Assembly (NCBI GenBank): GCA_015178975.1 | Contig: WHVD01000128.1 | Location: 124,001-188,000 of the forward strand | DNA: 64,000 nucleotides | Direction: 5' to 3' | From: Hysterangium stoloniferum | Lineage: Eukaryota; Basidiomycota; Agaricomycetes; Hysterangiales; Hysterangiaceae | Shown: positions 12,153-58,818 of the stretch, one piece after another | Position numbering within the stretch: position 1 is the first letter of the stretch | How the letters are laid out: the number at the start of each line of letters is the position of its first letter | The notes under the pieces: model-generated | Databases searched by the model: none | What the model saw: only the letters and a program-made list of their open reading frames with translations | Told to the model about the DNA's origin: nothing | Translations under genes and position numbers: made by a program

Positions 12153-13318
12153 ATGCGAGTCATTATTGCGGTTCTTTGTCTCTGTACCGCCTCTGCTACC
12201 GCTGGCACGGTCCTCTGGGACGGTTTCTTCAATGCATCAAGCAAAATATCAGATTTCGATGCCTGTGAGTATATCTCAAGGTGCTCCAACACTGGTGGTT
12301 AATTTTTCGAGCAGGGTCATTCAGCAATAAAACCGGAAAATGGCAATGGTACATCCATGGATCCGAGCCAACAGCCACTTACCTCAACCTTTCGTTCTGT
12401 TACAAGAACCCCGCTGACACCACCTCCGCACAAGGAATTAGGACTACCATCGTAATTATTATGTTATGGTAATTCTAAGACAGCTTCTTCGACTTCTTGT
12501 ATAGGATGGCACCTCATTCTGGCACAACCAAACCATGCAACGAACAGAGATTATACCTCAAACCAGTGTCAACCTCGGCACCGGCCATTTGTACTACCAC
12601 TTTTCCCTCATGACCAGCACAATAAATGCGCCAGACCCAGGATTCGAGCATCAGATCGCTTTGTGAGTCTTCACCGTTCATTTGAAGTCAATTTCACTGT
12701 CTCAAAGCACATGATAGCTTTGAAAACCATTTTACTGAGCTTAAGTTTGGTCTTGTCTCTGGCGATGCGGACCCACTCTTGCGCTGGGACGTAAGCGGTG
12801 TCAGTCAATGGAGCACTACATTGAAAGCGAGTAACTGGTACAACTTGTAAGTCCCAAATACCCCTGCTAACAATTTGACCATATATATACACCCGACAGC
12901 GCGTACGATATCGACTTTAGCACCGGGACAGTCGGCTTGTGGTCCTCCAACGGCTCAGAGCCTCTCACTCAAATAGTCACACCAATGTCTGCCACCACAT
13001 TCACTGATTCTGCTGACTGGTACGTAACCCAACACATTCTTTTTTTTCTTCGTGTCCCGTCATCAGTCGTGCTATACCTTTGGTAATTAGGGTAACTGAC
13101 GCTCCCCTCTCCACAGGCACATCGGTGTCCTCCGTTTGCCAAAGGACGGCACCATCCCTGCCACTCCTGAAGATTGGTACTGGTCAGGCATCTACGTTGA
13201 ACAAGCACCGATCACCACCTCTATCGCAGGCCCCAGCTCCGATGTTACAAGGTATGGTAGTAAAAGAAGGAGGTCTATCCGCAGTGCCAGACCGGATGTT
13301 GGAGGGTACAGTGGGTAA
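12153..13318 (+). CDS. Secreted GH131 beta-glucanase, six exons
   Basis: Spliced exons 12153-12264, 12315-12451, 12505-12662, 12718-12846, 12900-13019 and 13117-13318 give 285 aa, with GT-AG introns of 50-97 nt in consistent phase. Residues 1-18 are a signal peptide (MRVIIAVLCLCTASATAG), followed by TVLWDGFFN, the hallmark start of the GH131 domain. Family blocks follow: YIHG, YKNPADT, MQRTEIIP (Glu98), YYHFSLM, HQIAFFENHF (Glu138), LLRWDVSG, NWYNFAYDIDF and YWSGIYVEQ. The two glutamates match the proposed catalytic pair of characterised GH131 enzymes, which cleave beta-1,3/1,6- and beta-1,4-glucans outside the cell. There is no CBM1. The last 25 or so residues after SSDVT are basic and unlike the family, so the 3' end is the least certain part; another splice there is possible. 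The 3' half is duplicated in inverted orientation near 58.3-58.8 kb as a pseudogene. Confidence 0.88.
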
Positions 13319-13809
13319 GGATGGAGGTAGCTGATTTGCTGTTGCTTTGGAAGGTGTAATGCCGATTTGTGGTATTCACGCTTGTTTGAGTAAAGCAATT
13401 GTTTCACTAGCTAGCTATATACATAGTCTTTTTTCTTGTCATCTGTTCCACTATCAAGTATATGTTTCACTTGGGTTCCGTCCTTTATATGCAAGCTTTT
13501 TTCAGAGCGTGTTTCGTGTCTCATAGTTCCTGTGGGGGGGCTATAATGATCGGATGGATACCAACTAGCTTTGCATGATAAAGAAGTGGTGCTATGAAAT
13601 CAAGACAGTACTGATATTAGTGGCTTTCATGAAGTCTAGCATTGAGACGTGACTTTGTAAACTCTTCTCGGAGTTGTCCATCACCAGCCCAAATTGAGAA
13701 ACAGGTTCAGAGCCAAACTCGGTATAAGTATTGTCTAATAGCGGCTGTTGTGGACGCTTTAAAAATAGGAGGATAGATATAAAGATGGATAATGCAAAGT
13801 AGATTTTAA
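13319..13809. other. GH131 3' flank and intergenic, duplicated
   Basis: No gene. The segment is repeated, inverted and degraded, at 57,861-58,290. It contains the region in which GH131 transcripts should end. Confidence 0.5.
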
Positions 13810-13890
13810 GGTTCGGTAGTTCAGTTGGTGGAACGTCTGCTTAACATTTCGGTGCGCAGAAGGTCGTCGGTTCAAGTCCGGCCCGGATCA
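13810..13890 (+). tRNA. tRNA-Val(AAC) with a short intron
   Basis: 81 nt. Acceptor GGTTCGG pairs with CCGGATC (two G-U pairs) plus discriminator A. The D stem is GTTC/GAAC, the anticodon stem TCTGC/GCAGA, and the T arm GTCGTCGGTTCAAGTCCGGC is conserved. The loop reads TTAACA followed by about 8 extra nt before C, so anticodon AAC with an intron after position 37, the standard place for nuclear tRNA introns. A TTTTT terminator follows at about 13,893. A second copy is at 57,780-57,860 and a decayed third at 51,554-51,634. Confidence 0.88.
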
Positions 13891-14120
13891 AGTTTTTGCG
13901 ACATTTTCTATTACAATTGCTCACTGTTAGAATCATGTATTTGTACCAAAACGGAAAAATGCCGTGTCAAATATTGAATGAACTAGTCAAAATCAATATG
14001 AGGAGACGTTCCCACATGATTTACAGGATATTCATCCGTATCTAGTCCTAAAACTTTGCGGGTAGGTGGCTTTCATCAGCTTTATTCCAGAATCATGTTT
14101 GATAAGATAGCCTCCTAACT

Positions 14121-14312
14121 TTAAGAGCGGTCCCGTGTTTTTATGCCAGCCGTGTGTGCTTCGTTGGCCAGAGAGCAGGCTATCAGAAATTGGAACAGAG
14201 TCGCTGAAAATATAACCCTAACAGACAGACAAGGCAGACACTCACGTGCTGTAGCCACCCCCTTACAACAAGCTTTCAAAGCCCCCAGGTTGCTAAACCC
14301 AGTGAGTGACAT
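14121..14312 (-). CDS. Unidentified small ORF, preserved in the other arm
   Basis: 63 aa beginning MSLTGFSNLGALKAC and containing FSATLFQF and CSLANEAHTAG. The corresponding place in the right arm (57,385-57,537) reads MSLTGFSSLKAC, FSATMFQF and CSLANEAHTTG in frame, with an in-frame length change. Such a frame could survive by chance over this short length, so the gene is tentative. No family recognised. Confidence 0.3.
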   Translation of the reverse strand: MSLTGFSNLGALKACCKGVATARECLPCLSVRVIFSATLFQFLIACSLANEAHTAGIKTRDRS

Positions 14313-15530
14313 TCTGTGAATTACACGGCAACGATCTCAAGGGAAATTCGAGGGAAAACACAGCCAAAAGTAGATGTTGAACGGGATTGTATCGGCGTGG
14401 AGAGCTATTAAAACTCATGAGATATAAGACGTGCTTATTTGGGAAGCAGTCGTTGAGTGTATCCTTCCCGTTCCACTGTCCTTATGACTGCTGATCCTCC
14501 CTGATTTCATAGTAACTCTTACTATATTCATCAACGCCTGCCATAGGAGAAAAGGTTCAATTGGACAGGTAGCGCTCTTTAATAATCCGCGAGTGTGATG
14601 CTAACTGAAGGATGATTTCGCACTGTAGATCAGTGCATAATGCGCTTGAAGTGAACTTCAGTGGATTTTTTACTGCCATCAGCTTAACTATTGCGCTGTT
14701 CTCAGTACATTCGTGGCATGACCGAGGAAGGGTGACTTGGATAAATATCATTTGGAATTCTATTCTAAACATCCCCCAAAAACTATTCATAATCATTTCC
14801 GAGTAGGGACAAATATATATCTATTCTCTTCTAAAGTTTTACAATCAGCCAAGTATCTTCAGCTAATGGTATCCGCATGGCGCACTTTGTGGAAAGACTG
14901 CTGTCTAATTCAGCTTTACATTGGCATCAATGCAGACGTTGATAGGACCAAGCTGTATTCCTCGAGAACATATATGAAAGTTTTACAATGGGTTCATGTA
15001 ATCGGTATGTCGGGGCAAGTGGTCCAAATTTCATCCGAATGACAATTTTAACGCCAGTTACTTCCTAAGTTCCCTAGGAACATATTTCAAGCCATTTGGC
15101 TTAATACCTTTACTATTTTTTCAGATTTTTGTTTATCGTCAACCACTACCTTGTTATAATACCACTTCTGAGGACGAAGATTATAAATCTTTAAGTATCC
15201 GATTCAACATTTGTACAAATTTTTAGCTACTGTATTTTTATTGACTTTTTTGTGTACATGTATATAATTCTGGCAGAGTTTGCAGTCCAGATTCTTGATC
15301 ACTTCCTATCATGTCGATGCTAACCGCCTTGTAGGAGCATTTCATTCCTTTTTCAATAAAATGTCTAGAATATCTTGGAACGCTTGGGCATAGATTTGCA
15401 ATAACCGCATAAAAAGAGAAACGGGCCGTGCGACGGTGTTATGGGAAAGGTCTGTTTTTAAGCACATGTCAAAGTGTTGATGGCTGGCGTAGTGAAGCAG
15501 CCTGTACCGCTGATTACGCCCCCCGTATGG
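14313..15530. other. Duplicated intergenic block, function unknown
   Basis: Present in three places: here, at 56,200-57,384 (inverted) and partly at 50,695-51,550. The best-preserved piece (about 14,920-15,040) could encode GMSGQVVQ on the plus strand and is readable in all three copies, but the flanks are not conserved as one frame. I cannot call a gene. Confidence 0.4.
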
Positions 15531-16906
15531 CTACAGGAGAGAAAACTCAACGTCGCCACGAGTCTGGGAGAGAGATGCTAACTCCAATGCAACTTCTACG
15601 TTCCTTATTCTCATCCTGGGACGCCTGATGCAAACGCAGGTCAATAGGCCATCGCCATCTTTCGCAATGGGATTAACTGGAAGCATGCGTTTGAAAAGAA
15701 GTTGAACTAAGAGAATGGCGCCATGAGTGTGTAAAAAGGGGTCGATCCAACCCTGATAATCCTCAGTAGCACTTGGCGCAAATTTCAAGTCTTTTAATGC
15801 GGGTGCTTGAATGGATTCCAGGAAGCATTCTGGGTCGTCAGGGTTTACCGAAGCATAGCAGAAGAATGAGATCTAGTAAAGCGGGATAACACATAAGAAC
15901 CGGCAAAATGTCTGTAATGTTTCCAGGCCGACTCCATCCCGAATATTGAGTGAGGTTAAGGCTGTGTGCCTCCCAAGTGCCAAAGGCAATACATGGGGAA
16001 TAAAGCAATACAGACCACTGATACCAATGGAGGACAAACACGGTGAATTAATTTGACCCGTTCGTATCTGATAGTCCTGTGCAACCTCTATAAAAACAGA
16101 CCGCAACCAGCATGATTCAAGCATCGGAGCATGTATGGGGGTGGCAAAGGGGAAAAGGATGTCAAACTCTTCATTGTCAGATCATGTACAATCAGATGGC
16201 AAACATGGAAAAATGACAATGAATTGCTCCCAGAAGAATGTTGATGAGGTCGTTAGGCCACCTGTGGGTTGCTTTTACAAAGATGGTAACAGGGCATGCA
16301 CCAGACCATGATAGCCAGTCTTTCACGTTCCTAGCATTAAGAAGGAGGGTGCGATTGAATACCATGGTTGTCCAAACCCACGGTGTATTTTGCCCAACAG
16401 CTCACCAATGCTTGCAGACCAAAAGCAGCCCATCTCACGAACCATGTTTGTTTGTCGCTGGTTAAGAGATGACTCATCTAAGCCCAGGATGCATTTTGCC
16501 AGAATGTTCCCTAGAAGCTCGTTTGGTAGGCTTTCTATCATCTTCTGTCATGTCGAGACAACAAAGAGTGAGCTTGCATGAGCAGTAATGCGCCCCTGTG
16601 ACTCCTCAAGACCTATAGGAAATCAAGGTATGTGAGCGAAACAGTGAAGCCCATGTCACGAGAAGTACCTGATTCGCCGTGATATTGGGCTTTCGACCTC
16701 GGGTCATCCGATTCTTTTTCTGTTCCGCCAATCCTCATAGTCTGCCTGAAATCTAAAAGTAACAATTTCTCTTATCATGAAGGCAAACCACAATGTAGAT
16801 CACAGATCTCACCTTGCACAGTGTGGTCGGTCAACCGATCATCGCTCTGATCGATGACTTAAGGATCCCCCTGGGAGATGTTATCGACATTATGAGGTGA
16901 AGACAT
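15531..16906 (-). pseudogene. F-box protein pseudogene
   Basis: This is the inverted counterpart of the intact F-box gene at 54,503-56,190. The start region (16,906 downward) and the F-box LPNELLGNILAKCI remain. About 2 extra bases after the MVR codons (near 16,450) shift the frame into GCFWSAS. Further on, only fragments such as the piece at 15,788-15,531 (ATEDYQGWIDPF, then VQLLFKRMLPVN) are readable, and roughly 70 codons between those two blocks are deleted. The intact copy shows what was lost. Confidence 0.9.
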
Positions 16907-17289
16907 CAATGATAGGTGCAACAACCAGGATGGAAGGAAGGAAAGTGCGGAGATAGTCTGACTTGTGGTTATTCTTACGTAAAAGGTTCAGACTGGGCCA
17001 CCTTCGTTTGCTCACTCGGAAATTTTAGCACAGCGCTCGCCATCCCTCGATGTCGTCCTATCCTCTTAGCAATATTGATTGTTGGCCGGTTTTATATCTC
17101 GAGTTCAGTGTATGAATGAAAAGGGAGTCAGGTCAAATTCTGTTGTCCTGATTTTATGGAGCTGTTTGTTCATAAGGTTTGAAACAAAGCACATCCTCGA
17201 ATCGCACACTTACCTATTCAGGGTTATTATAATACTCGTGTTTCATTTTCACTCAAAGGGTCGGTTGCGGGAGGGCATTCGAGTCAATT

Positions 17290-17640
17290 CAATTGAGGAT
17301 TAGAAGAGACAAGAGTGTCTCACTCAACAAAACCACAGGAGTGACGCTCCTGCAACCAGTTATAGCTCTTAAGGGATGCATCAAAAAAGACCAAAATACT
17401 GTTATTATCAGCAATGCCAACAGGAAGTAACAAGAACAAAAGCGCACCAGATGGAGTGCCGAGTAGAATCCTTCTCAAAGTTGACGAACACCTCAGGTTC
17501 TTAAATCTCAGGGACACACCTGCACAAGGTAAGTCTCAATCTGTTTGTACGATTGGCATCAACACCATCCTGACTGCCTTCTTTGAAGGGATCATAGCAT
17601 CAATGTCGCACCAGTGCAATATACCAGGATGATATCCCTA
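17290..17640 (+). CDS. Unidentified basic ORF copy, divergent from the F-box sequence
   Basis: Two overlapping frames: one reads SVSLNKTTGVTLLQPVIALK then CIKKDQNTVIIS, the other NKNKSAPDGVPSRILLKV then FLNLRDTPAQG. The same pieces recur at 48,448-48,789, 49,930-50,300 and 53,880-54,232, always on the opposite strand to an adjacent F-box 5' end. Protein-level similarity across four copies suggests a former gene, but no copy has a clean single frame. No family recognised; probably a pseudogene here. Confidence 0.3.
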
Positions 17641-17649
17641 TCTGGAATC

Positions 17650-19214
17650 AGGGACATCCCGGAAACAATTGAAAAGCCCTGCCTAAAGTAGAGGCATTCT
17701 GGCGAGCATAAGAAGCGAATCGAGGTAAGTCCAAGTAAATAACATTCAGAATAGCACTTGAACTGTGTTTCTTATTTCTAGCGAATGATTTTCAATGGTG
17801 ACGCCCGATAATTCTGGCACTGGTAGAGAGCCTTCCTTGTTATGATACTATGACCCATCGAAGTAGGAATGAAGATAGACAGTCTACCACAACGACACTT
17901 AGCGAAGGGTTACATCCAGAGAAATGCGACATAGCTCACTCGTGTAAGTAGATAGATAGACAATTGAACTCCAGACATAGTGAGTTGGTCAAGGACTATT
18001 GGTGTATGTGAAGATTCTTTGCCATATACCTTGTCTGCTGTCAAGTATGCCTATTCCATCCAAGAGGGACAAGTTACCTCCAAATCTGCAGAAAAAAAAA
18101 AGAAATCCGTGGACACAATACTGTCTTTCGGCCTGCGTTCTGCTGTATACGGCCATTGTCGGTTCATGAAGGCATACGACATCCGCGTTGGCTGTGAAGA
18201 ACAGGAAATATTTAGAGATCCCTTGCTTTTGGAGGCGGGCTAACACAGCACACGATACATTCTTCCAGGACCTTCAAAGACATCACCAGATTGAGTATTC
18301 AATTTAAAAAGCCAAATGAAGAGGTCACGAATTTTAAATATTCTGGTCCTGTAGGTATGGCAGTCGTGCTCAGCTGTCGACATCTCTCACATGGAAAAAT
18401 GACAGAATTCTCCATGTTGGATGACCACGGTTGACAATTAAGTTCAATGCCATGTGGTGTCGCTTGATTGAGCCTACCTAACTCTTTTCAAGATCAAACA
18501 TGATATAAGAATCTGCATGAATACGCGATGAATGCCACTGAGGCAGAGTACTTACCTTCTCAGACACGATGTGTTCTACCCGCCGACAGAATACTCTCAC
18601 TTCCTAGGAAGAGGTCCACAAATATCCCATGCCCATCTTCGCATTATCAACATTCCTCCAATGCAGAATTTGGGGTTATCAAGATATCATGCCAGAAAAC
18701 ATGGAACCAATATCGTGAAAATTTGAGCTGGGTGACATATCGGAGTTCGAATCAACTACGCTTCCTATGTGAGTTCTAGTGGCATTTTAGGCTCATGTCC
18801 ATTTCCGTGTCTCTCAGAACAACAAAGATATTTTCTAATAGGCTTTAACCAGTGTGAAGATATTTCTGGAAACCGTCCAGTCAGGGCACCCGCGCTTTCA
18901 TGCCTCGGAACTTTATATCCTCGTGTAATGTATAATTACTTCATCTTTGTCGACTGTAATTCAATCCAATAATTCACTAGGTTTTTGTTTTTGTTTTAAA
19001 TCTCCGTCCTCATTTTTAGATCTCCAAGAGAGGGCAAGAGCATGTGGCTTGAGTGGAGGAATTAGAGACTTACGACAACGTAGTGCCAGTTAGTGCTGAT
19101 ATACATTTATCAAAGCTAAAAGGAAATATCATGGTAGGTTCGTCACTATGGCTTATGCATGGCCGATAATAATAGTTTATAGTTTCAAACTAATTATTTA
19201 TAAAGATATTGTCC
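17650..19214. other. Duplicated flank plus intergenic, no gene recognised
   Basis: Up to 18,967 this matches 52,459-53,750 in inverse order. A minus-strand frame near 18,050-18,010 (ILDSRQGIWQRI) corresponds to ENGVIETRQVVWQRI at 53,350-53,400 in the right arm, so a short coding segment may once have existed. From 18,968 to 19,214 nothing is recognised. Confidence 0.4.
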
Positions 19215-20146
19215 CTATACTGTTTTCTCTAGGACTCCTGCAATCCATATAGTAAGATCCTTTAATATGCGATCGTCGACCTGATGCCCTAATCCTGGGT
19301 AAACATTCCAGTGGGTTTTATGAGCGGAGGTGCTATTTGTTCCCGACGAAGGCGTCTCTCGTGCACCATCTTCATATGCATAACCCCTCCCCTGCAACCA
19401 CTTCACAACACCTACCGCATGATTAAGTGGAATAATCTTATCTGAATCACCGTGTCCCCAGAAAAGGGGAGGCGGAGGTAAGGCATGAGTTATCTCCCGT
19501 CGCTGATCAGACAAAAGTTCTGCCAGCATCCAACCCCCAATCACGCCAACGCCGCCGATTGTGCTTCCGATATTCGAACTTAAGAGCCCTGTCAATATAG
19601 CCATGGATCCTCCTTGACTGAATCCGACGAGTAATATCTTGGAAGCGGGGATGCCGGTGCTAATTTCGGATTGAATGATGGAGGAGAGGGACCCTATGGA
19701 GGCACCTACAAGCCCATCGTTGATGAATGTTGAATTGAAATTTTGGGAGAGTCGGAGAAAATCTATTTCTGAGGGCGATTGGGTAGGCAGAGAATGAACA
19801 TCAAACCACCGTGGGTTGGAGATATTTTGTTCGCATGTTATCGGACCTATTTCGCTGGAGGGTAATATTGATACGTCATTTACCAGCTAATCATAGAAGA
19901 CAGGAGTACTTACGCTTGAGGAAGTATCCATTTGACTTGAATGGTTTTGGAGGTGGTTTCCTTTAGTGCGAGTGCTACACTGTGTACCCAAGGGAGCCAT
20001 GATTCAGCGGATTGACCTAGACCCTGTTATTTAGTGGTATGATAATATATATTTTTATAGTTAATTCATGCAAAGTGATATGTTCTTAATATACTCGCAT
20101 GTAAAAAAATGATAGTTGCTGTTGGTACCGTGCCAGCAGGTGGCAT
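19215..20146 (-). CDS. Acyl-protein thioesterase / phospholipase-carboxylesterase-like hydrolase
   Basis: Exons 20146-20099, 20023-19914 and 19854-19215 give 265 aa. The alpha/beta-hydrolase landmarks are in order: IIFLHGLGQS (oxyanion region, residues 12-21), VKWILPQA, NPRWFD, nucleophile GFSQGG (Ser132), acid GHGDSD (about 189-191) and base GLGHQVDD (His243). These match the APT1/LYPLA family, which removes palmitate from proteins or hydrolyses lysophospholipids in the cytosol. The protein is slightly longer than the usual 220-235 aa because of a Ser/Thr-rich insert near 213-232. There is no signal peptide. The first intron has GC-AG ends (GCGAGT donor at 20098) and splits the HG motif; the second is a 59-nt GT-AG intron. 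Two in-frame splices that restore family motifs make the model strong. Confidence 0.87.
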
Positions 20147-20577
20147 TATCTCAAATGTGCGGGACAATGACATAAATGTGATAATGGAGCAATTGATACT
20201 CGAAATACGCAGGCAGCCTCCTCCATCTTTTATATTGATATATAGCACAATACAGTATGAGTCATGCCATATTTGAAATTCCTCCGCAGTTCGCTGACGG
20301 GATCCCTATAATAAATCAGATATGACCTACTAAGAATTACCGGCGCATGCGGCCTCTGGACAACCAGGTACAAAAAGACAAGAAACAATAATAAAACTTT
20401 GAACAAATGATATACGGAGCATTAGGCACTACCTGCCAAACCAAATTTAGCTTCAAATGATGACATTACTTAACAATCACGTGGACAACTTTTTCTTGTA
20501 CCTTCACTCACCTCCCACCCCCCCAAGCTGGGAATGAATGACAAGTCCTAAATTGCAGAATTGTATCTAGTAATAAT

Positions 20578-20670
20578 TTAGTCACGGTGGGTAGTGAACT
20601 TGTTATTCGGGGATCTAACTCGGGCGACGGACGTAGAGGGGGCTTTGCGTTTTGGCTGAGTGGATGCCAT
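20578..20670 (-). CDS. Possible 30-aa small ORF or first exon
   Basis: Reads MASTQPKRKAPSTSVARV then PNNKFTTHRD. It is basic, with a TATTTAAATTTAATC stretch about 35-50 bp upstream that could be a TATA region. It may be a stand-alone peptide, the first exon of an unrecognised gene or chance. The rest of 20,250-21,150 has no gene; it includes homopolymer runs near 20,750 and 21,045. Confidence 0.25.
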   Translation of the reverse strand: MASTQPKRKAPSTSVARVRSPNNKFTTHRD

Positions 20671-21159
20671 TGTGTAATGTACTTGGACCTGCGGACTCCG
20701 TATTTAAATTTAATCTAGGCACTGTAGGGAAATGTCAGTAAATCTTCCCTCTTTTTTTTTGGAAAACAATTGATTCGAACGGTAACGTGCAGTACAACTT
20801 AATGGCAGCCAGCTACAAGTGCCCTTAGAGATTAAAAATCACTTCGATGGTAAGATTCTACGCGACACCTGCCGTTTTACCTAAGTCCATCTAACTGCAA
20901 GAAGAGCCTATTCCGATCACTTTGGAACCGACGACCAAACACCTCTTCCCTAGACTCGTGACGCTTTCAACGAAATAAACACGCCGCATGGTGTTAACCG
21001 AATCCTAGATAAGTAATCTATCTCATTTTTTGCACACGGGGGAAGGGGGGGGGGCCTAAACAAGCAAACATACTTATTGATGTCTCCTATCGTAGCGCCG
21101 TTTCAATCACCTCCTCTCCCAAGATTGTCGAGTTAACGTCACGCATGGCAGCCTTAGGA

Positions 21160-21420
21160 TTAGTGCGTGCGATTTGACCCTGGGTCGTGAAATGAGGACG
21201 AAGTTCCATTCAGGGACTCAATGTCGTCTTTGGAGAGTGCGTGGTATTCTCCAAGGAGGTACTCTTTGGTCTCTTTAATTATTGTTGAGTTTTTGACGGC
21301 TCCCTGTTGGAACATTTTGGTTAGTGTTGGTTTCCTGTTGAGGTCGCACGCCGTTTTACTGTGGACCTCACGGTAAGTGTGATATTGGAATATTGCGGTT
21401 ACTCCATTTGTCCCGGACAC
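21160..21420 (-). CDS. Unidentified ORF, 86 aa
   Basis: One open frame beginning MSGTNGVTAIFQYHTYREV and including KETKEYLLGEYHALSKDD. It is hydrophilic and natural-looking, without signal peptide or membrane segment. No family recognised. It may be a fragment of a larger gene; no splice partner was found with confidence. Confidence 0.3.
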   Translation of the reverse strand: MSGTNGVTAIFQYHTYREVHSKTACDLNRKPTLTKMFQQGAVKNSTIIKETKEYLLGEYHALSKDDIESLNGTSSSFHDPGSNRTH

Positions 21421-21665
21421 CGATAATTTTTTTCGGTATTTCCCTATTCATCGTGCATCAATTTATGTATTAGGGTAGTAATGACTAGTTGTAACCCGTG
21501 AGAGAATCCGCATACTTTCAACCCTCCCGACAATCCAACTGTATTGTAGCTGTGTAATCATAATTATAATTGTTCACATGTCCTCATAATTTGATTCCAT
21601 TGCTTCGCGAGTAAATGTGTTCCAGGCCGAAGCATCACGCTTGTTTCTTGCTGTTCTCCTTCCCA

Positions 21666-31519: not shown

Positions 31520-32340
31520 ATTCTTTTGTCAACCTACAACTTGATTAGGTTAGCACCAACATTTAAAGCTTGCGCAAGACTCACATACCCAAAGCTTCAT
31601 CATGATTACACCTAACCAAGCAAGCTCCTTGGTGATCCATCGATGATTTGGGAATGCCCATACCCTTTATGTGGACTGCCTAAACTACCTAGATCTGTGG
31701 TAAGCTTTTATATTGGCTAGTAATAGGGATCTCAAAAAAGTAGTGTGTCTAGCCAAGTCTACATAGTTGAGCTAGTGAGCTCTTGTAGAAGGCTCAAGAC
31801 AATATATATATGGCATACTTACTGATCTTCCCATTTTCCTGATGCTCCATCTTTAGATGTTACAATGAGATCAAATACATTTTGCACATTTTGAATTTCA
31901 TGATTGTATTATTGTTGGAGTATGATATTACAGCTTTATGATATAATATAATGTTCCCTGAAGTTTCTCGATATTTTTAGTATTTTTCCCAACACTGCAG
32001 GTGCAGTAGTTAGTATCTAGTTAGGCAAATATGCAATGTCCCAGGAGTCTGGGTCCATAATGTCACAAAGCTACTTTGGAGCTTGCTTCTATCTCATTCC
32101 TCAGTGTTCTGGGTAATCTTCAGCTTCATATTCACCTGCTTTAAGAATTATCTCACATAGAGCCCTACTCTAATGGATAAAATGGAATTAACAAGAACAA
32201 CAAGAAAACCTCTGCCAACAGTGTCATTACATGCAGCCCATCTCAAAAATATACAATATTTCAGGGTCTGGCAGCTAATGAACCAGTAGCCATCTTTATA
32301 ATTGGTTTTAACAATGCATGTCTATGGATGAAAATGCCTG
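31520..32340. other. Downstream flank of carboxypeptidase 1, tandem-duplicated
   Basis: No gene. 31,690-31,960 is repeated at 35,580-35,790 (AGCTTTTATATTGGC, TTTTCCTGATGCTCCATC), marking the start of a tandem duplication unit. Confidence 0.6.
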
Positions 32341-35579: not shown

Positions 35580-35933
35580 CCATAGAAAGCTTTTATCTCG
35601 GCCAGTAATAGGGATCTCGAAGAAGTAGTAGGTCTAGCCGAATCCAGTCGAGCTAGCGAGCTCTCCTAGATGACTCTGGACAATGTGTACGGCATACTTT
35701 GACCTTCCCATTTTCCTGATACTCCATCTTTACATATTACAATAATATCAAATATATTTTGCACAAGTTAATTTCACCACTGTATTATTTCACATTGCGC
35801 CGCGCCTTGCTCTAAATAGATAGAATGTAATTAAAAAGAACCAGAAGAAAACCTGTGTCGAGGTGTCATTACATTCAGTTCATCACCTTTATAATTGGTT
35901 TGAACAATGCATGTGTATGGATTAAACTGCCTG

Positions 35934-48239: not shown

Positions 48240-48447
48240 GCCTCGAAATGACACAATATGTTTTATTTCAATTTAAATCTTTTTCTAAATGTACTACTAA
48301 TGCCAGAATTATCAGGCGTCACCATTGGAAATCATTCACTAGAAATAGGCCAAAGAGTTCAAGTGCTATTCTGAATGTTATTTACTTAGATTTACCTCGA
48401 TGCGTTTCTTATGCTCGCCAGGGTGCCCCTCATTCGAGATAGTAGTA

Positions 48448-48789
48448 TCATCCTGGTGTATTGAACAGGTGTGACATTGATATTATGATCCCCTCAAAGA
48501 AGGCAGTCAGAGTCAGGATGGTGTTGATGCCAATCGTACAAACAGAATGAGACTTGTGCAGGTGTGTCCCTGAGATGTAAGAACCTGAGGTATTCGTCAA
48601 CTTGAGAAGGATTCTACTCAGTACTCCATCTGGTGTGCTTTTTGTCCTTGTTGCCCCCCCGTTGGAATTGCTGATAATAACAGTTTTTTGATCTTTTTTG
48701 ATGCATCCCTTAAGAGCTATAACGGGTTGCATGAACGTCACTCCTGCGGTTTTGTTGAGTGACACACGCTTGTCTCTTCTAATCCTCAA
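48448..48789 (-). CDS. Unidentified basic ORF, longest surviving copy (113 aa)
   Basis: Open from MRIRRDKRVSLNKTAGVTFM through KKDQKTVIIS and SRILLKLTNTSG to NTPG. Homologous blocks in the other three copies (17.3, 50.0 and 53.9 kb) are split between frames, so this copy is either the best preserved or joined by chance indels. It lies divergent from an F-box 5' end. No family recognised. Confidence 0.3.
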   Translation of the reverse strand: MRIRRDKRVSLNKTAGVTFMQPVIALKGCIKKDQKTVIISNSNGGATRTKSTPDGVLSRILLKLTNTSGSYISGTHLHKSHSVCTIGINTILTLTAFFEGIIISMSHLFNTPG

Positions 48790-49163
48790 TCAAATTGGTT
48801 CGAATCCCCTCCCGCAACCGACCCTTTGAGTAAAAATGAAACACGAGTATTATAATAACCCTGAATAGGTAAGTGCCAGTCAAGGATGTGCTTTGTTTCA
48901 AACCTTACGAACAAACAGCTCGGTAAAATCAGGATGACAGAATTTGACCTGACTCCCTTTCATTCATACACTGAACTCCAGATATAAAACGGCCAACAAT
49001 CAATATTGCTAAGAGGATAGGACGACATTGAGGGATTGCGAGCGCTGTGCTGAAATTTCCGAGTGAGCAAACGAAGGTGGCCCAGTCTGAACCTTTTACG
49101 TAAGAACCGCCACAGGTCAGACTATCTCCGCGCTTTCCTTCCTGGTTGTTGCACCTATCATTG

Positions 49164-49222
49164 ATGTCTTCACCTCATAATGTCGATAACATCTCCCAGC
49201 GGGATTCTCAAGTTGTCGATCA
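49164..49222 (+). pseudogene. F-box gene exon 1 fragment
   Basis: Matches 54,503-54,560 (MSSPHNV, NISQ, DSQV), then breaks off at the palindrome centre, where the inverted arm begins. Confidence 0.8.
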
Positions 49223-49564
49223 TCGCATGAGCGGTAATGCACCCCTTTGACTTCTCAAGACCTATAAAAAATCACAGTATGTCAGCGAAACAGTGAAGCC
49301 CATATCACGAGAAGTACCTGATTCACCGCGATATTGCGCGTTCGACCTCGGGTCATCCGATTCTTCTTCTGCTCTGCCAATCCTCATAGTCGGCCTGAAA
49401 TCTAAAAAGTAACAATTTCTCTTAGCATGAAGGCAAACCACAATGTAGATCACAGATCTCACTTTGCACAGCGTGGTCGGTCGGTCAACCAATCATCATC
49501 AATCTGATCAATAACTTGAGAATCCCGCTGGGAGATGTTATCGACACTTTTGAGGTGAAGACAT
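49223..49564 (-). pseudogene. F-box gene 5' fragment, inverted arm
   Basis: Carries the start of exon 3 (49,223-49,260), exon 2 (FRPTMRIGRAEEESDDPRS) and exon 1, which contains an early stop (CGA TAA) just after the start. No F-box domain is present. Confidence 0.82.
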
Positions 49565-51553
49565 TGATAATAGGTGCGACAACTAGGGTGGAAGGAAGGA
49601 AAGCGCAGAGATAGTCTGACCTGTGGCAGTTCTTATGTACTGGGCCACCTTCGTTTGCTCACTCGGAAATTTCAGCACAGCGCTCGCAATTCCTCAATGT
49701 CGTCCTATCCTCTTAGCAATATCGACTGTTGGCCGGTTTTATATCTGGAGTTCAGTGTATGAATGAAAAGGGAGTCAGGTCAAATTCTGTTGTCCTGATC
49801 TTACCGAGCTGTTTGTTCATAGGTTTGAAACAAAGCACATTCTCAAATGGCACACTTACCTATTCAGGGTTATTATAATACTCGTGTTTCATTTTCACTC
49901 AAAGGGTCGGTTGCAGGAGGGCATTCGAGCCAATTTGATTGAGGATTAGAAGAGACAAGCGTGTCTCACTCAACAAAACCACAGGAGTGATGCTCCTGCA
50001 ACCCGTTATAGCTCTTAAGGGATGCATCAAAAAAGACCAAAATACTGTTATTATCAGCAATTCCAACGGGGAGTAATAAGAACAAAAAGCGCACCAGATT
50101 GAGTGCGGAGTAGAATCCTTCTCAAAGTTGACGAACACCTCAGGTTCTTAAATCTCAGGGACACATCTGCACGAGATAAGTCTCGATCTGTTCGTACGAT
50201 TAGCATCAATGTCGCACCAGTGGAATATACCAGGATGATATCCCTATCTGGAAAGAGGGACACCCAAGAAACAATTGAAAAGCCCTGCCTAGAGTAGGGG
50301 CATCCTGGCGAGCATAAGAAGCGCATCGAGGTAAATCCAAGTAAATAACATTCAGAATAGCACTCAAACTGTTTGTCTTATTTCTAGCGAATGATTTTCA
50401 ATGGTGACGCCCGATAATTCTGGCACTAGTAGAGACCCCTCCTTGTTACGATATTATGACCTATCGAAAGTTGGAATAAAGATAGACGATCTAACACGAC
50501 AACACTTAGCGAATGGTTACATCTAGCAAAATGCGACTCAGCTCGCTCGTGTAAGTGGATAGACAATTGAGCTCCAGACATGGCGAGTTGGTGTTAAGGA
50601 CTATCCGCGTATGTGCAGATTCTTTGCCACAACTTGCCTGCTCTTAATTACGCCATTTTCCCCTAATATTCCATCCAAGTGGAAACAAAAAAATTGCGTT
50701 GGAGTTAGCATCTCTCCCTCAGACTCGTGGCGACAGTGATTTTTTCTCCTGTAGCCATACGGGGAGGTAATCAGCGGTACAAACCGCTTCACTACACCAG
50801 CCATCACCACTTTGACACGTCCTTAAAACCAGAACCTTTCCCATAATACCATAGCATAGCCCGTTTCTCTTTTTATGCGGTTATTGCAAATCTATGCCCA
50901 ATCGCTCCAAGACTAGACATTTTATTGACGAAGGAATGAAATGCTTGTTGAAATACGCGTATCTCTATCACGTACTCGGGTAGCAGAGGACCTTCGCATT
51001 CGTGCAGGGAGCTATATTCGCATGTAGCTACGTATATAAACCCTAAGAACAATAGAATGCTATATGGGGAAGACAATGGTAATGTGAAAAAAGGGGGAAT
51101 CATGGAACAATAGGGGAAGAGAACAAAGGAACATGAGCTTGGATGATACTCGAAATCCAACAATGCTCCTACCAGAAGGTTAGCATGGACATGATAGTAA
51201 GTGATCAAGAATCCGGACCGCAAGCTCTGCCAGAATTATATACATGTACACAAAAAAATCAATGAAAATACAGTAGCTAAGAATTGGTACAAATGTTGAA
51301 TCGGATACTTAAAGATTTATTATCTTTATCCTCAGAAAGTGGTATTATAACAAGGTGTTGGTTAACGACATGAAAAATCCCCAAAAATAGTGAACGCATT
51401 AAACCAAATGGTTTGAAATATGTTCCTAGGGAGCTTGGGGAGTAAATGGTGTTAAAATTGTCATTCAGATGAGATTTGAACCACTTGCCCCGACATACCG
51501 ATGACATGAACCCATTGTAAAATAAAGTAATAACAAAAAATGTCACAAAAGGT

Positions 51554-51634
51554 TGATCTGGGCCGAACTTGAATTGACGACCTCCTGCGGACAGAAATGT
51601 TAAGCAGACGTTCCACCAACTGAACTACCGCGAT
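51554..51634 (-). pseudogene. Decayed tRNA-Val(AAC)
   Basis: The anticodon arm, intron position and D arm are as in the two good copies. The acceptor 5' strand (ATCGCGG) no longer pairs with the 3' strand (CCAGATC), except for the two innermost pairs, and the T arm is altered (GTCAATTCAAGTTCG). Confidence 0.8.
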
Positions 51635-51740
51635 TAGCAGAAATTCAAGAATAATTGTATCGAGCGCAGTAGAGACTTCAAACGTTTGGTTTTCTGACAA
51701 ATGAGGAGGGTCAGGCACTCGAAGGCAGTCCGATCAGTGC

Positions 51741-52091
51741 ATGACTGACCATGCGAAGCAATTGTGGAACTCGCTGCGTGCGGAGAATGAAGACCCAGAA
51801 CGTTGGGGGAGTCGGAATGCGTTTGCGAGTGAATACTTCAGCAACAATATGTGCACTCTCGTCGTTGCACCAGGTAATCGATACATCGCATATGGTCAGA
51901 TATTTTTCTTCATCTTTCATCTCAATCTCGCCTCACTCACTAAACACCATTTTTGTCTAATAGATTTATTCGCAAATTTGTTTATTTCTCCATGGTACAC
52001 TGTTTTCATGATCTATGGACTTTTAAATATTGATACAAGCTATGGGGAACCTGAGCGGAATAGGACTTCTGAGCAAAATAAAATAACTTAG
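51741..52091 (+). CDS. Possible exon of an unidentified protein
   Basis: The frame reads MTDHAKQLWNSLRAENEDPE then NAFASEYFSNNMCTLVVAPG, and then a GTAATC that may be a splice donor. Beyond that the frame becomes hydrophobic and AT-rich, like intron sequence. It lies outside the duplicated unit. The remaining 52,092-52,458 shows nothing recognisable. Confidence 0.25.
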   Translation: MTDHAKQLWNSLRAENEDPERWGSRNAFASEYFSNNMCTLVVAPGNRYIAYGQIFFFIFHLNLASLTKHHFCLIDLFANLFISPWYTVFMIYGLLNIDTSYGEPERNRTSEQNKIT

Positions 52092-53299
52092 CCTCCTGGA
52101 TGAAAATAGGGCAGAGCAGGAAATGGCGGGTATGCGGAGCTCAGATGGACACAGTAGGATGCAGAATATACCAGGAAAAAATATATACTATAGCGGAAAT
52201 AATGATTAAATGACAATTTAAAACATCTACAGCATGCAACAGACCCACCTCAGACCACACCTGCTGGAGCCAGAAGCGCTCGGCATTTTGATTGATTTTG
52301 AATACAGAACGTGTCGGCAGAGACCAGCGGGTCTTCTGGAGAGCGGCCAAAATCTGGGAATATCTGGAGACAATCCGCTCTTCAGCTCTCAGCAGATTCC
52401 TACAGATAATCCCAGATTGTTCCCGAGCAGGTTTTCACGGGGACGTTCACCCTTGTTAGATTGAATTACCGTCGTCAAAGATGAAGTAATTATACGTTAC
52501 ACGAGGATATAAAGTTCCGAAGCATGAAAGCGCGGGTGCCCTGACTGGACGGTTGCCAGAAACATCTTTACACTGGTTAAAACCTACTGAAAATCACCTT
52601 TCATGTTGTTCTGAGAGACATGGAAATGACTATGAACCCAAAATGCCATTAGAACTCGCATTGGAAGCATAGCTGATTCGAACTCCGATATGTCTCACCA
52701 ACTCGAAGTGGCATTGGTACCATGTTCTGGCTTGCTATCTTGATAGCCCCAAATTCTGCATTGGACGAATGTTGATAGCACGGAGATGGCTATAGGATAT
52801 TTGTGGAACTCTTCCTAGGAATTGAGAGCGTTCTGTGGGTGGTGGGGGGAGAACACATCGTATCTGAGGAGGTAAGTACCTCAGTGACATTCATCGCGTA
52901 TTCATGTAGATTCTCACATCACGTTTGATCTTGAAAAGAGTGAAGTAGGCTCAATCAAGCGACAGCACATGGCATTGAACTTAATTCTCAACCTTGGTCA
53001 TCATGGAGAATTCTGTCAATTTTCCATGTAAGAGATTGTCTGACAACTGAGAACGACTGCCATACCTGCTTGACCAGAATATCCAAAAGTCGTGACCTCT
53101 TCATTTGCCTCTTTTCAATTTAATGCTCGATCTAGTGATGTCTTCGAAGGTCCTAGAAGAATGTATCGTGTGCCATGTTAGCCCGCCTCCAGAAGCAAGA
53201 GATCTCTAACCATTCCCTGTTCTTCACAGCCAACGTGCGTATACCATCATGAACCAACAATAACCATATACAGCAGAACGCGGGTCGATAGACAGTATT

Positions 53300-53638
53300 G
53301 TGTCCACGGATTTTCTTTTGCAGATTTATTCCCTCTTGGATGGAATATTAGAGGAGAACGGCGTAATTGAGACTAGGCAAGTCGTATGGCAAAGAATCTG
53401 CAAATACGCGGATAGCCCTGAACGCCAACTCGCCATGTCTGGAGCTCAATTGTCTATCCACTTACACGAGCGAGGTGAGTCGCATTTTGCTGGATGTAAC
53501 CCTTCGCTAAGTGTTGTTGTGTTAGATCGTCTATCTTCATTCCTACTTTCGATGGATCATAGTGTCATAACAAGGAAGAATCTCTATCAGTACCAGTACC
53601 AGAATTATCGGGCGTCACCATTGAAAATCATTTGCTAG
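53300..53638 (+). CDS. Unidentified ORF in the duplicated flank
   Basis: A CAG at about 53,323 could be a splice acceptor before a frame reading SLLDGILEENGVIETRQVVW and SPERQLAMSGAQLSIHLHER, with a GTGAGT donor at about 53,475. Partial counterparts exist near 18,010 and 50,560. No family recognised; the frame beyond the donor is probably intron. Confidence 0.3.
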   Translation: MSTDFLLQIYSLLDGILEENGVIETRQVVWQRICKYADSPERQLAMSGAQLSIHLHERGESHFAGCNPSLSVVVLDRLSSFLLSMDHSVITRKNLYQYQYQNYRASPLKIIC

Positions 53639-53879
53639 AAATAAGAAACACAGTTGGAGTTCTATTCTGAATGTTGTTTACTTGGACTTACCGCGATGCG
53701 CTTCTCATACTCGCCAGGACGCCTCTGCTTTGGGCAAGCTTTTTAACTGTTTCCGGGATGTCCCTCATTCCAGATAGGGATATCATCCTGGGATATTGAA
53801 CTGGTGCAACATTGATGTTATGATCCTCTCAAAGAAGGTAGTCAGAATGGTGTTGATGCCAATCTTAAAAACAGATCAA

Positions 53880-54232
53880 GACTTACCTTGTGCAGGTGTG
53901 TCCCTGAGATTTAAGAACCTGAAATATTTGTCAACTTGAGGAGGATTCTACTCGGTACTCCATCTGGTGCGCTTTTTGTCCTTGTTGCCCCCGTTGGAAT
54001 TGCTGACAATAACAGTATTTTGATCTTTTTTGATGCATCTCTTAAGAGCTATAACGGGTTGCATGAACGTCATTCCTGCGGTTTTGTTGAGTGACACACG
54101 CTTGTCTCTTCTAATCCTCAATCGAATTGGCTTGAATGCCCTCCCGCAACCACCCTTTGAGTGAAAATGAAACACCAGTATTATAATAACCCTGAATAGG
54201 TAAGTGTCAGTTGAGGATGTGCTTTGTTTCAA
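53880..54232 (-). CDS. Unidentified basic ORF, divergent neighbour of the intact F-box gene
   Basis: Reads MKQSTSSTDTYLFRVIIILV then VSLNKTAGMTFMQPVIALK, ending after NKDKKRTRW. It is shorter than the copy at 48,448. About 270 bp separate it from the F-box ATG, suggesting a shared promoter region if it is a gene at all. Confidence 0.25.
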
Positions 54233-54502
54233 ATCTTACGAACAAACAGCTCGGTAAAATCAGGACGACAGAATTTGACCTGACTCCCTTTTCATTCATA
54301 CACTGAACTCCAGATATAAAACCGGCCAACAATCGATATTGCTAAGAGGATAGGATGACATTGAGGGATTGCGAGCGCTGTGCTGAAATTTCCGAGTGAG
54401 CAAATGAAGGTGGCCCAGTCTGAACCTTTTACGTAAGAACAACCACAAGTCAGATTATCCGCGCTTTCCTTCCTTCCTTCCTGGTTGTTGCACCTATCAT
54501 TG

Positions 54503-56190
54503 ATGTCTTCACCTCATAATGTCAATAACATCTCCCAGCCGGATTCTCAAGTTATCGATCAGATCGATGATGATCGGTTGACCGACCACGTTGTGCAAGG
54601 TGAGATCTATGATCTACATTGTGGTTTGCCTTCACGCTAAGAGAAATTGTTACTTTTAGATTTCAGGCCGACTATGAGGATCGGCATAACAGAAGAAGAA
54701 TCGGACGACCCGAGGTCGAAAGCGCAATATCACGGCGAATCAGGTACTTCTCGTGATATGGACTTCACTGTTTCGCTTACATACCGTGATTTCCTATAGG
54801 TCTTGAGGAGTCAAAGGGACGCATTGTCGCTCATACAAGCCGTTCACTTTTTGCTGTCTCGACACGACAGAAGACGGTTGAATGCCTACCCAATGAGCTT
54901 CTAGGGAATATTCTGGCAAGATGCATCCCAAGCTTAGATGAGTTATCTCTTGACCAGAGAAAAACAAACATGGTTCGTGATGGGCTGCTTTTGGTCTGCA
55001 AGCGTTGGCGAGCTGTGGGGCAAAATACACCGCGGGTTTGGACAACCATGGTATTCAATCGTACCCTTCTTCACGATGCTAGGAACGTGAAAGACTGGCT
55101 ATCATGGTCTGGTGCATGCCCTGTTACCATCTTTGTAAAAGCAACCCACAGGCGGCCCAATGACCTCATCAATGTTCTTCTGGGAGAAATTCATCGTCAT
55201 TTTTCCCATGTTCGCCATCTAATTGTACATGATCTGAACAATGAAGAGTATGACATCCTTTTCCCCTTCGCCACCCCCACGCATGCTCCGATGCTTGAAT
55301 CATGCTGGTTGCGATCTGTTTTTATAGAGGTTGCACAGGACTATCAGATACGAATGGGTCAAATTAATTCACCGTGTTTGTCCTCCATTGGTATCAGCGG
55401 TCCGTATTGCTTTATTCCCCGTGTATTGCCTTTGGCACCTGGGAGGCACACAGCCTTAACTTCGCTCAACATTCGGGGATGGAATCGGCCTGGAAACATT
55501 ACAGACATTTTGCCGGTTCTTAGGTGTTGTCCCGCTTTACTAGATCTCAGTATAATAGCTGGCATTGAAGTTACGCCGTTCACTCCTAGACACATAATGC
55601 CTGTGGAGCTTCCCGCTTTATGTGTCTTTTCCTTCTGCTATGTTTCGCTAAACCCAGACGACCCAGAATGCTTCCTGGAATCCATTCAAGCACCCGCATT
55701 AAAAGACCTAAGATTTGCGCTAAGTGCCACTGAGGATTATGAGGGTTGGATCGACCCTTTTTACACACTCATGGCGCCATTCTCTGCATCATTGTCTAAA
55801 GTTACCTTTACAGGAGATATGGATGAAGATGAAATTATGGACATTCTTCGGGATTTGTACAGGATCAATGAACTTACCCTAGTTGGTCTCAAGTGTGCCG
55901 ATGCAATCTATGAAGGCCTCTGCCCTCCTCCTGACACTGAGACAATTCATTGGCTCTGCCCCCATTTACGGACGCTGACTATAATTGAGGTTGGGATAAA
56001 AGCCGACTGGATAGTTCAACTTCTTTTCAAACGCATGCTTCCAGTCAATTCCATTGCGAGAGATGGCGATGGCCTATTGACCCGCGTTTGCATCAAACGT
56101 CCCAGGATAGAAGCAAGCAACGCAGAAGTTGCATTGGAGTTGGCATCTCTCTCCCAGACTCATGGCGACGTTGAGTTTTCTCTCCCGTAG
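54503..56190 (+). CDS. F-box protein, intact, three exons
   Basis: Exons 54503-54599, 54660-54743 and 54800-56190 give 523 aa; introns of 60 and 56 nt have GT-AG ends and consistent phase. The F-box lies at about residues 86-140 (VECLPNELLGNILARC, then LLLVCKRWRAVGQNTPRVW). The remainder has irregular leucine-rich stretches (TALTSLNIRG, PALKDLRFAL, HLRTLTIIEVG) of the kind seen in the large F-box families of mushroom fungi. F-box proteins link targets to the Skp1-Cul1 ubiquitin ligase; the target here is unknown. The start at 54,503 is preferred over the internal Met118 because all upstream codons join in frame and the F-box precedes Met118. The left-arm copy and the 49-kb fragment are dead. 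Confidence 0.9.
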
Positions 56191-57384
56191 CCATACGGGG
56201 AGCGTAATCAGCGGTACAGGCCGCTTCACTACGCCCGCCATCAACACTTTGACATGTGCTCAAAAACAGACCTTTCCCATAATACCGTCGCGCAGCCCGT
56301 TTCTTTTTTTACGCGGTTATTGGAAATCTATGCCCAAGCGTTCCAAGGCATTCTAGGCGTTTTATTGACGAAGGAATGAAATGCTCCTACCAGACGGTTA
56401 GCATTGACACGATAGGAAGCGATCAAGAATCCGGACCGCAAACTCTGCCAGAATTATATACATGTACACAAAATGTCAATGAAAATACAGTAGCTAATAA
56501 TTTGTACAAATGTTGAATCGGATACTTATAGATTTATTATATTTATCCTCAGAAAGTGATATTATAACTGGTTGACGATAAAAGAAATTTCAAAAAATTG
56601 TACAGGCATTAAACGAAATGGCTTGAAATATGTTCCTAGGGACCTTGGGGAGTAAATGGTGTTAAAATTGTCATTCGGATGAGATTGAACCACTTGCCCC
56701 GACATACCGATTACATGAACCCACTGTAAAAATTTCATATATGGTCTCGAGGAATACAGCTTGGTCCTATCGACGTCTGGATCGATGGCAATGTAAAGCT
56801 GCATTGGACAGCAGCCCCCCCACAAGGCGTGCCACGGGAACGCCAGCGGCCGATCGCAAAACTTTAAAAGAGAATAGATGCTGATATATATTCATCCCTA
56901 CTCGGAAATGATTATGAATTGTTTTTTGGGTGATGTTTAAACAAAATTCCAAATGATATTTATTCAAGTCACCCCTCCCCCGCCACGCCACGAGTGTACT
57001 GAGCACAGTGCAATAGTTGTCCAAATCTAAGCTGATAGCAGTTCAGTTCAAGCGCATTATGAACTGGTATACAATGCGAAATCTTCCTTCAGTCAGCATC
57101 ACACTCATGCATTATTGAAAAACGCTGCCTGTCCAATTGAATCTATTCTCGGGGTTGGTGAATGTGGTAAGAGCTACTATGAAATCATGGAGAGTCAGCA
57201 GTCATAAGGACAGTGGAGAGGAAAGGATACACACTCCACGACTGCTTCCCACATAAACCCGCCTTACATCTCATTATTTTAAGCAGCTCTCCACTGCAAT
57301 TCAATCCCGTTCAACATCTACCTTTGGCACCGCTTGTGTTTTCCCTAGAATTTCCCCTGAGATGGTTGCCGTGTATTTTACAGA
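56191..57384. other. Duplicated intergenic block
   Basis: The counterpart of 14,313-15,530 (inverted) and in part of 50,695-51,550. A minus-strand frame near 56,780-56,690 (DPDVDRTKLYSSRPYMK then GMSGQVVQ) parallels the left arm. No gene can be called. Confidence 0.4.
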
Positions 57385-57537
57385 ATGTCACTCACTGGTT
57401 TTAGCAGCCTCAAAGCTTGTTCTAAGGCTGCTAGGGTTATATTTTCAGCGACCATGTTCCAATTTGTGACAGACTGCTCTCTGGCCAACGAAGCGCACAC
57501 GACTGGCACAAAAAGAGGAGACCGCTCTTCAACTTAA
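57385..57537 (+). CDS. Unidentified 50-aa ORF, preserved in both arms
   Basis: MSLTGFSSLKACSKAARVIF then FSATMFQFVTDCSLANEAHT. The left-arm partner at 14,312-14,121 is 63 aa, with the same start and C-terminal half. No family recognised. Confidence 0.3.
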   Translation: MSLTGFSSLKACSKAARVIFSATMFQFVTDCSLANEAHTTGTKRGDRSST

Positions 57538-57779
57538 GAGGCTATCTTAATCAAGTACGACTCTCGAACAAAGCCGATCCAATCCAGAGCTTCCTATCCG
57601 CAAAGCTTCAGCAATAGACACGGATGCACTATTGGTTCGTGCTAGATTGGTAGTGACCCTCCTGGTGCTGTCATGCTTTTTGTATAAGTGCGTATTATTC
57701 CGGTCAGATATTTTTAACGCGATTGCGCGAATATACTTTAGAGTAATAAAAGTAATAAACAAAAAATGTCGGAAAAATT

Positions 57780-57860
57780 TGATCCGAGCCGGACTTGAAC
57801 CGACGACCTTCTGCGCACTGAAATGTTAAGCAGACGTTCCACCAACTGAACTATCGAACC
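57780..57860 (-). tRNA. tRNA-Val(AAC) with a short intron, second copy
   Basis: As the copy at 13,810-13,890, except that acceptor pair 7 is A-T here and G-C there, a compensatory change that keeps the stem. The anticodon loop TTAACA with about 8 intron bases is shared. A TTTTT terminator follows on the minus strand at about 57,773-57,777. Confidence 0.86.
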
Positions 57861-58299
57861 TTATAAGTAGCGGGCATAATCTATCTTTATATACCTTCTC
57901 TTATTTTTAAGGCGTTCCCTAAAACCAACAACCAGACTATACAACTATATCGTTTCGCTCTGAACCAACTCCGAGAAGAGTTTACAAGGTCATTTTTCAA
58001 TGATAGACTTGATGAAAGCACCTAATATCAGCACTGCTTGATATCATAGCACCCTTTCTTTATCAGGCAAAGCGAGTTTGTATCCATCCGACCATTCCTC
58101 TCCCACGGGAACTATGAGACAGAAACACGCTCTTAAAAACGCCTCCATATAAAGGACGGGACCAAGTGAAACATATACCTGATAGTGGAACAGAGGAGAA
58201 GGAAAAAAAAGACTATGTATATATAGCTAGCTAGTGAAACAATTGCTCTACTCAAACAAGCGTGAATACCACAAATCAGCATTACACCTCCAAAGCAAC

Positions 58300-58818
58300 A
58301 GTAGATAAGCTACCTCCATCCTTTACCACCATACCCTGCAACATCCGGCCTGGCACTGCGGATAGACCTCCTTCACCATACCTTGTAACATCGGAGCTGG
58401 GGCCGGCGATAGAGATGATGATCGGCGCTTGTTCAACGTAGATTCCAGACCAGTGCCAACTGTCAGGAGTGGCAGAGATAATGCCGTCTTTTGACAGACG
58501 GACCCCGGTGCTCTGGATAACCAGGCAGCGATCAAGGCATTGAACAACAGCAAGACACAACCCAGCCAATGCCTTCTAGATAAGATCATTAGGACAATCA
58601 GGCTACTCCGAAATCATTGGCGACAAATGCGCATCCACCTCGAATGGGTACCAAGACACGAAGGCATCGAAGGTTAATGAGTCTGTGGATCGCCTAGCTA
58701 CTTACAACTTGTGCTAGTTGCCCGCCTTCAACCCAGTGATTTAATTGACAAATACCGCCAATGTCCCAGCGGAAGAGTGGGTCCGCGTCGCCCACTTCAT
58801 CAGAGACAAGACTTTGGT
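58300..58818 (-). pseudogene. GH131 pseudogene (exon 4 and exon 6 remnants)
   Basis: On the minus strand, 58,818-58,740 reads GDADPLFRWDIGG (exon 4) and 58,500-58,310 reads RLSKDG, WHWSGIYVEQAPI and SIAGPSSDVTRYG (exon 6). Exon 5 is replaced by a retrotransposon fragment on the opposite strand, and exons 1-3 are absent because the duplication begins in exon 4. Not functional. Confidence 0.9.
58513..58712 (+). pseudogene. Retrotransposon RNase H fragment
   Basis: The plus strand reads DNQAAIKALNNSKTQ, then RLLRNHWRQMRIHLEWVPRH, then GIEG; a frameshift at about 58,675 separates this from ESVDRLAT. DNQAAI (second catalytic Asp) and WVPxHxGIEGNE-VDxLA are hallmarks of the RNase H domain of non-LTR retrotransposons. 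Only the C-terminal part of the domain is present. Confidence 0.8.

Follow-up and report, generated by a model that had tools for sequence, protein, structure and literature searches.

A probable old inverted duplication with gene loss in the fungus Hysterangium stoloniferum

Reciprocal gene loss after duplication is known from the whole-genome duplication in yeasts. In fungi, gene order and orientation may also be shuffled while the gene content stays on one chromosome, a pattern called mesosynteny. Mesosynteny has been described genome-wide for filamentous ascomycetes (PMC3219968), whereas the present study concerns one locus. In Drosophila mojavensis, both breakpoints of inversions 2h and 2q carry DNA that was once single copy and is now duplicated in inverted orientation; one of the copies was partly lost by deletion, and dating was done by divergence (PMC3355041). 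Here, I analyzed a stretch of 64,000 nucleotides (the window, positions 124001-188000 of contig C33) in the genome assembly of the basidiomycete Hysterangium stoloniferum (111 Mb, 554 contigs). It contains two inverted arms, A on the left and B on the right, about 33 kb apart. Like 2h and 2q, the locus has several-kb inverted copies of single-copy DNA around an interval, with genes partly lost; unlike them, it has a third, palindromic copy, and the likeness rests on the arrangement in this one genome. As after the duplication in yeasts, complementary loss has left one copy per gene in different places. In contrast to the yeast case, the unit is a local inverted block, and I infer the direction of loss. 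The locus is an instance of a known phenomenon, inverted duplication with loss, and the duplication is old. Specifically, it is likely (a probability of roughly 0.7) that a local segment was long ago duplicated in inverted orientation, that further partial copies arose, and that genes were then lost reciprocally. A literature search, covering titles and the beginnings of abstracts, yielded none about this locus.

The inverted pair and its genes

A preliminary description of this stretch had reported an inverted pair of about 6 kb and proposed a dot-plot as a check. In a self-blastn comparison of the window, the two arms formed an antiparallel diagonal in unbroken order, and the pair is real at the reported places (Table 1). 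In a global alignment of the core (13131-18972), the arms were 87.8% identical over 5,662 aligned sites. The homology is long, collinear, non-transposon, and on opposite strands, as in an inverted segmental duplication. It comprises several neighbouring genes and not one mobile unit: GH131, tRNA, and F-box sequences are found in both arms, and a remnant of a Ski2-type helicase gene lies outside arm A. A bias in the arm differences resembling CpG decay or repeat-induced point mutation was not seen, as transitions occurred across contexts in counts unnormalised for base content. A comparison of arm A with a phage collection in the near mode gave no match.

Table 1. Coordinates of the features in the window (position 1 is the first nucleotide of the window)
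Feature	Position	Strand	Basis or remark
Arm A (left)	12752-18972	+	blastn diagonal to arm B; edges are the limit of visible DNA identity
Arm B (right)	52453-58818	-	blastn diagonal to arm A
Arm A/B block	15867-18972/55549-52453	antiparallel	88% (self-blastn)
Arm A/B block	15710-15886/55785-55611	antiparallel	90% (self-blastn)
Arm A/B block	14287-15709/57410-56012	antiparallel	85% (self-blastn)
Arm A/B block	14033-14224/57626-57428	antiparallel	81% (self-blastn)
Arm A/B block	13754-13907/57915-57763	antiparallel	87% (self-blastn)
Arm A/B block	13131-13676/58502-57966	antiparallel	87% (self-blastn)
Arm A/B block	12761-12852/58792-58700	antiparallel	77% (self-blastn)
GH131 gene, intact, 6 exons	12153-13318	+	gene model and GH131_N
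GH131 remnants in arm B (parts of exons 6 and 4; start approximate)	58316-58792	-	alignment to arm A
Foreign piece splitting the arm B GH131 remnant (exon 6 and exon 4 parts)	58518-58698	+	one further genomic copy, on C57, 73%
F-box gene, arm B	54674-56190	+	exons 54674-54743 and 54800-56190; 486 amino acids, open
F-box pseudogene, arm A	15593-16634	-	comparison with the arm B gene
tRNA of arm A (8-nt intron), taken to be Val(AAC)	13810-13890	+	53.6 bits
tRNA-Val(AAC) with 8-nt intron, arm B	57780-57860	-	53.5 bits
Helicase gene of Ski2 type beside arm B (extent approximate, predicted from domains)	59076-63862	+	Pfam domains
Ski2-type remnant, antisense, mirror position outside arm A	10823-11144	-	10999-11144 firm; 10823-10856 marginal
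Solo tRNA-bearing long terminal repeat (LTR)-like repeat inside the Ski2 remnant	10870-10998		genome repeat comparison
Copy C1, F-box upstream block, oriented as B	48294-49235	-	self-blastn
Copy C2, same block, oriented as A, palindromic with C1	49225-50689	+	self-blastn
Remaining part of copy C: 3' region of the F-box gene, spacer, degenerate tRNA, B orientation	50691-51630	-	self-blastn
Two dispersed repeats, occupying the space from copy C to the inner edge of arm B	51630-52450		genome repeat matches
Degenerate dispersed repeat, arm A	14892-14969	+	mate in arm B at 56737-56814

The two arms keep different genes open, as the preliminary description had supposed. The GH131 gene of arm A has five GT-AG introns of 50-97 nt. 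Its product of 285 amino acids matches nearly the whole GH131_N profile (210 bits), and an exon-by-exon search of the genome (4/4 candidates scored) found GH131_N in this gene only. In a search of solved structures, the last exon hit two entries, one named beta-glucanase and the other putative uncharacterized protein. In arm B, only parts of exons 6 and 4 remain. A frame in the exon 6-like stretch (58282-58572) is still open and has no Pfam match, and the exon 4 fragment is about 78% identical to arm A. Exons 1-3 were not found beside arm B when the outer flanks were compared at high sensitivity. The foreign piece that splits the remnant has no Pfam match; presumably it is related to the RNase H part of a retroelement.

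The F-box gene shows the opposite state. The reading frame of the arm A copy is broken by seven indels, among them two deletions (80 and 226 bp), while the arm B copy is open. Thus, the F-box gene is dead on the left and intact on the right, and each of these two genes is open in one arm and a remnant in the other. The arm B protein has an F-box-like match of 21.6 bits, under the Pfam cut-off of 24.3, and no match among solved structures at E up to 1. Of its 30 protein matches in the genome, 20 lie outside C33 and C519, another contig of the assembly.

A second F-box locus was found on C519. A 1.5-kb inverted pair (L018 4711-6232/7877-9398) is 99.7% identical, with a spacing of 1.6 kb, and each of its arms bears the 5' part of an F-box gene. 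Another inverted pair (92.6% identity), which has no F-box part, adjoins it. Judging from these sequences, inverted duplication appears to recur around this F-box family.

The tRNA gene, which had been described as tRNA-Val in both arms, is present and looks intact in both. ARAGORN, run with introns, called the arm B copy Val(AAC) and split the arm A copy as Thr(AGT); three related copies on contig C135 were called Val once (L024) and Met(CAT) twice (L023), so that two of the five copies (arm B and L024) were called Val(AAC). The isotype of the arm A copy is probably Val(AAC), as read from the loop that it shares with the B copy. The two arm copies are identical at 78 of 81 positions, versus 84-89% in the adjacent segments. 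Of the three differences, one falls within the intron; the remaining two replace both bases of a single stem pair, which is G-C in A and A-T in B. Because of this high identity and the two-sided change of a stem pair, both tRNA genes look selected, and the gene looks conserved in both arms.

Searches of the genome with the two arms (the best 40 of 126 and the best 40 of 222 candidates were scored) gave long matches in C33 only, apart from 5' pieces of the F-box gene on C519. The remaining matches were the tRNA on C135 and short stretches of dispersed repeats. The inner flank of arm A is single copy, the outer edges of the arms have decayed, and past the arm edges the inner flanks of A and B have no mutual homology. 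These results bear on two other explanations. The arms might have been carried by a gene-capturing mobile element, since dispersed repeats abut the inner edge of arm B and lie in and around both arms; with long matches so confined to C33 and a single-copy inner flank at arm A, this is highly improbable. An artefact of assembly or haplotypes might be suspected in a draft of so many contigs. It is scarcely credible here, as the arms diverge by 12%, different genes are broken in them, a third copy is present, and the homology does not continue past the inner edges.

Probable extent of the duplication and proposed order of events

Beside arm B lies a Ski2-type helicase gene with matches to Ski2_N (57.8 bits), DEAD (38.7), the MTR4-like stalk (42.0), and DSHCT (149.9). 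The MTR4 beta-barrel match of 25.0 bits is under the cut-off, and two frames have no match. In the high-sensitivity comparison of the flanks, positions 10999-11144 matched 61927-61781 with 99.6 bits, against a maximum of 33.7 in 20 shuffles; the neighbouring piece 10823-10856 (34.6 bits) is marginal against that value. The frame that holds the matched stretch has no Pfam match of its own. A genome search with 801 bp of the Ski2-type gene (window positions 61500-62300) found two places, the gene and the antisense remnant. Since this remnant lies antisense in the mirror position, the duplicated block probably reached into the Ski2-type gene. Thus, the pair stands as first described, but its limits do not, as the homology extends to these outer positions. 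Ski2 also fits the reciprocal pattern, with the domains by arm B and the remnant by arm A. Just left of the window, a highly repetitive, tandem-like stretch was observed (L016 6505-8660).

Self-blastn also revealed a third, partial copy between the arms (copy C, 48294-51630). It is scrambled and partly palindromic, and most of the F-box coding region is gone. Its tRNA is degenerate, with 70 of 77 positions identical, and was not called by ARAGORN.

If an inverted duplication was followed by reciprocal loss, the events may have run as follows. A block of the Ski2-type gene, GH131, the tRNA (probably Val-AAC), and the F-box gene would have been copied onto the opposite strand at a distance of about 33 kb, perhaps by template switching during repair, which is a guess. 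Further rearranged partial copies (C1, C2, and the rest of C) would have arisen beside arm B. The redundant genes would then have decayed reciprocally: A would have kept GH131, B the Ski2-type and F-box genes, and both the tRNA. Neighbouring genes would thereby end up in different places and orientations, and no survivor need have moved.

The same arms could instead be the footprint of one past inversion with staggered breaks, in which the DNA between the nicks was duplicated inversely at both ends and the interval was inverted once for all relative to the ancestor. The anatomy matches that of 2h and 2q (PMC3355041), and the Ski2 domains, which continue beyond arm B, point to B as the probable original location. 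However, one such inversion leaves both the palindromic copy C and the inverted F-box pair of C519 unexplained, whereas the two together suggest repeated local inverted duplication. A single staggered inversion is therefore the less convincing account and is considered unlikely.

Several points weigh against the duplication followed by reciprocal loss. The outermost pieces are more diverged (76% identity for the Ski2 remnant and about 78% for GH131 exon 4) than the core (88%); an older separate event, or a later homogenisation of the core, must thus be allowed. The F-box copies differ evenly at the three codon positions, each with about 360 sites (24/29/31), and so does the B branch in the stretch where C519 gives the direction of change (6/4/6), so that no constraint on the protein sequence can be seen in the B copy, which is open. 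The absence of stop codons in this copy is uninformative (chance 0.26). All seven frame-breaking indels are on A and none on B, for which the chance at equal rates is 0.5^7 = 0.008 provided that they were seven independent events. The tests for exchange among the copies, given below, speak for the duplication, and their limits belong to this side of the balance.

Possible past exchange among the copies and the proposed flipping of the interval

In a 1,021-column alignment of four copies, a tree grouped A with C2 and B with C1 (bootstrap 97). Among the 865 columns in which every copy had a base, 26 sites divided the copies two against two, with counts of 15/7/4 for the splits. The 15 sites of the main split cluster in the middle of the alignment (P = 0.004 in a maximum-segment permutation test, which was designed after the order of the sites had been seen). 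Plain runs tests on this alignment were weak (P = 0.059 and 0.042). Of the pieces C1-C4, C1 and C2 were put to three-copy runs tests, neither of which reached significance (P = 0.058 and 0.23). The centre of the arms (15131-17560) is 92.0% identical, versus 86.5% in the flanks (13131-13676, 14033-15130, and 17561-18972, with 13677-14032 left out), this division having been picked after the data were seen. The mosaic sites and the less diverged centre hint at past gene conversion and do not prove it. From the alignments, past conversion among the copies is plausible, and it has probably kept the F-box centre more alike.

It had further been proposed that the arms recombine and flip the 33-kb interval, so that its orientation varies between strains. 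The inverted geometry and the signs of past exchange among the copies would suit such a switch, and because of these signs a flip in the past is conceivable. However, near-identical inverted arms, as in a recombining segment, were not found. In this one assembly, the arms diverge by 12% with frequent indels, and only two identical runs exceed 50 bp, the longest being 77 bp. In yeast, mismatches suppress recombination, and a divergence of 3% cuts single-strand annealing to below half, while mismatches mattered little in tail-free assays, according to a review (PMC8072546). Flipping is thus unsupported and very improbable. The inverted duplication and the complementary decay of the preliminary description hold, with the neighbouring Ski2-type gene conforming to them; the flipping part falls. 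By its sequence, the 99.7% inverted pair of C519 is a far better candidate for a flipping segment.

Interval genes, repeats, and implications

The preliminary description had placed APT, AKR, and carboxypeptidase genes in the interval. APT is borne out by an Abhydrolase_2 match at 19215-19883. It was the only match when 26 of the 39 frames of at least 100 amino acids starting at 19215-51277 were searched singly against Pfam; 24 of these 26 frames (100-188 amino acids) matched no families at E up to 0.01. Genes at this locus consist of many short exons, so that the scan neither supports nor rules out AKR and carboxypeptidase.

The degenerate dispersed repeat in arm A has its mate at the same site in arm B, which suggests that the repeat is older than the duplication. 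It belongs to a repeat of about 185 bp, which also occurs as direct pairs 1.4-1.6 kb apart (L020, L021, and L022). The tRNA-bearing repeat inside the Ski2 remnant is about 129 bp long, and its tRNA was called Val(CAC). At least 60 further matches, some partial, were found in the genome, frequently in direct pairs with a spacing of about 283-285 bp and with TG...CA ends. Flanking duplications of 5 bp were read by eye in L030 and L031, and ARAGORN called tRNA-Ile(UAU) five times in L030, L031, and L032. The repeat resembles Helenus, a group of tRNA-bearing miniature LTR elements (PMC10886601).

Two direct repeats were also observed in the interval. A tandem duplication (32291-34537/35884-38110) is 90% identical, a divergence near that of the inverted arms, and the stretches upstream of its copies (31681-31844 and 35582-35720) also match C519 near an F-box copy. 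The other repeat (26924-27281/30978-31461) shows 100% identity across stretches of 272 and 120 bp and surrounds an 18-bp tandem array that differs in length between the copies.

The locus is a half-decayed case of gene order and orientation changing through copying and loss, not through moved DNA. A comparison of synteny would score such changes as inversions. Caution is also needed with apparent pairs of inverted repeats, which are not necessarily switches. More tentatively, and with considerable doubt, local inverted duplication and then random reciprocal loss may continually produce small inversions and transpositions of gene order in this fungal lineage. The locus would then have been caught half way: the Ski2-type gene and the only GH131 gene found are split onto opposite strands, no survivor would have moved, and conversion would still have homogenised the centre.

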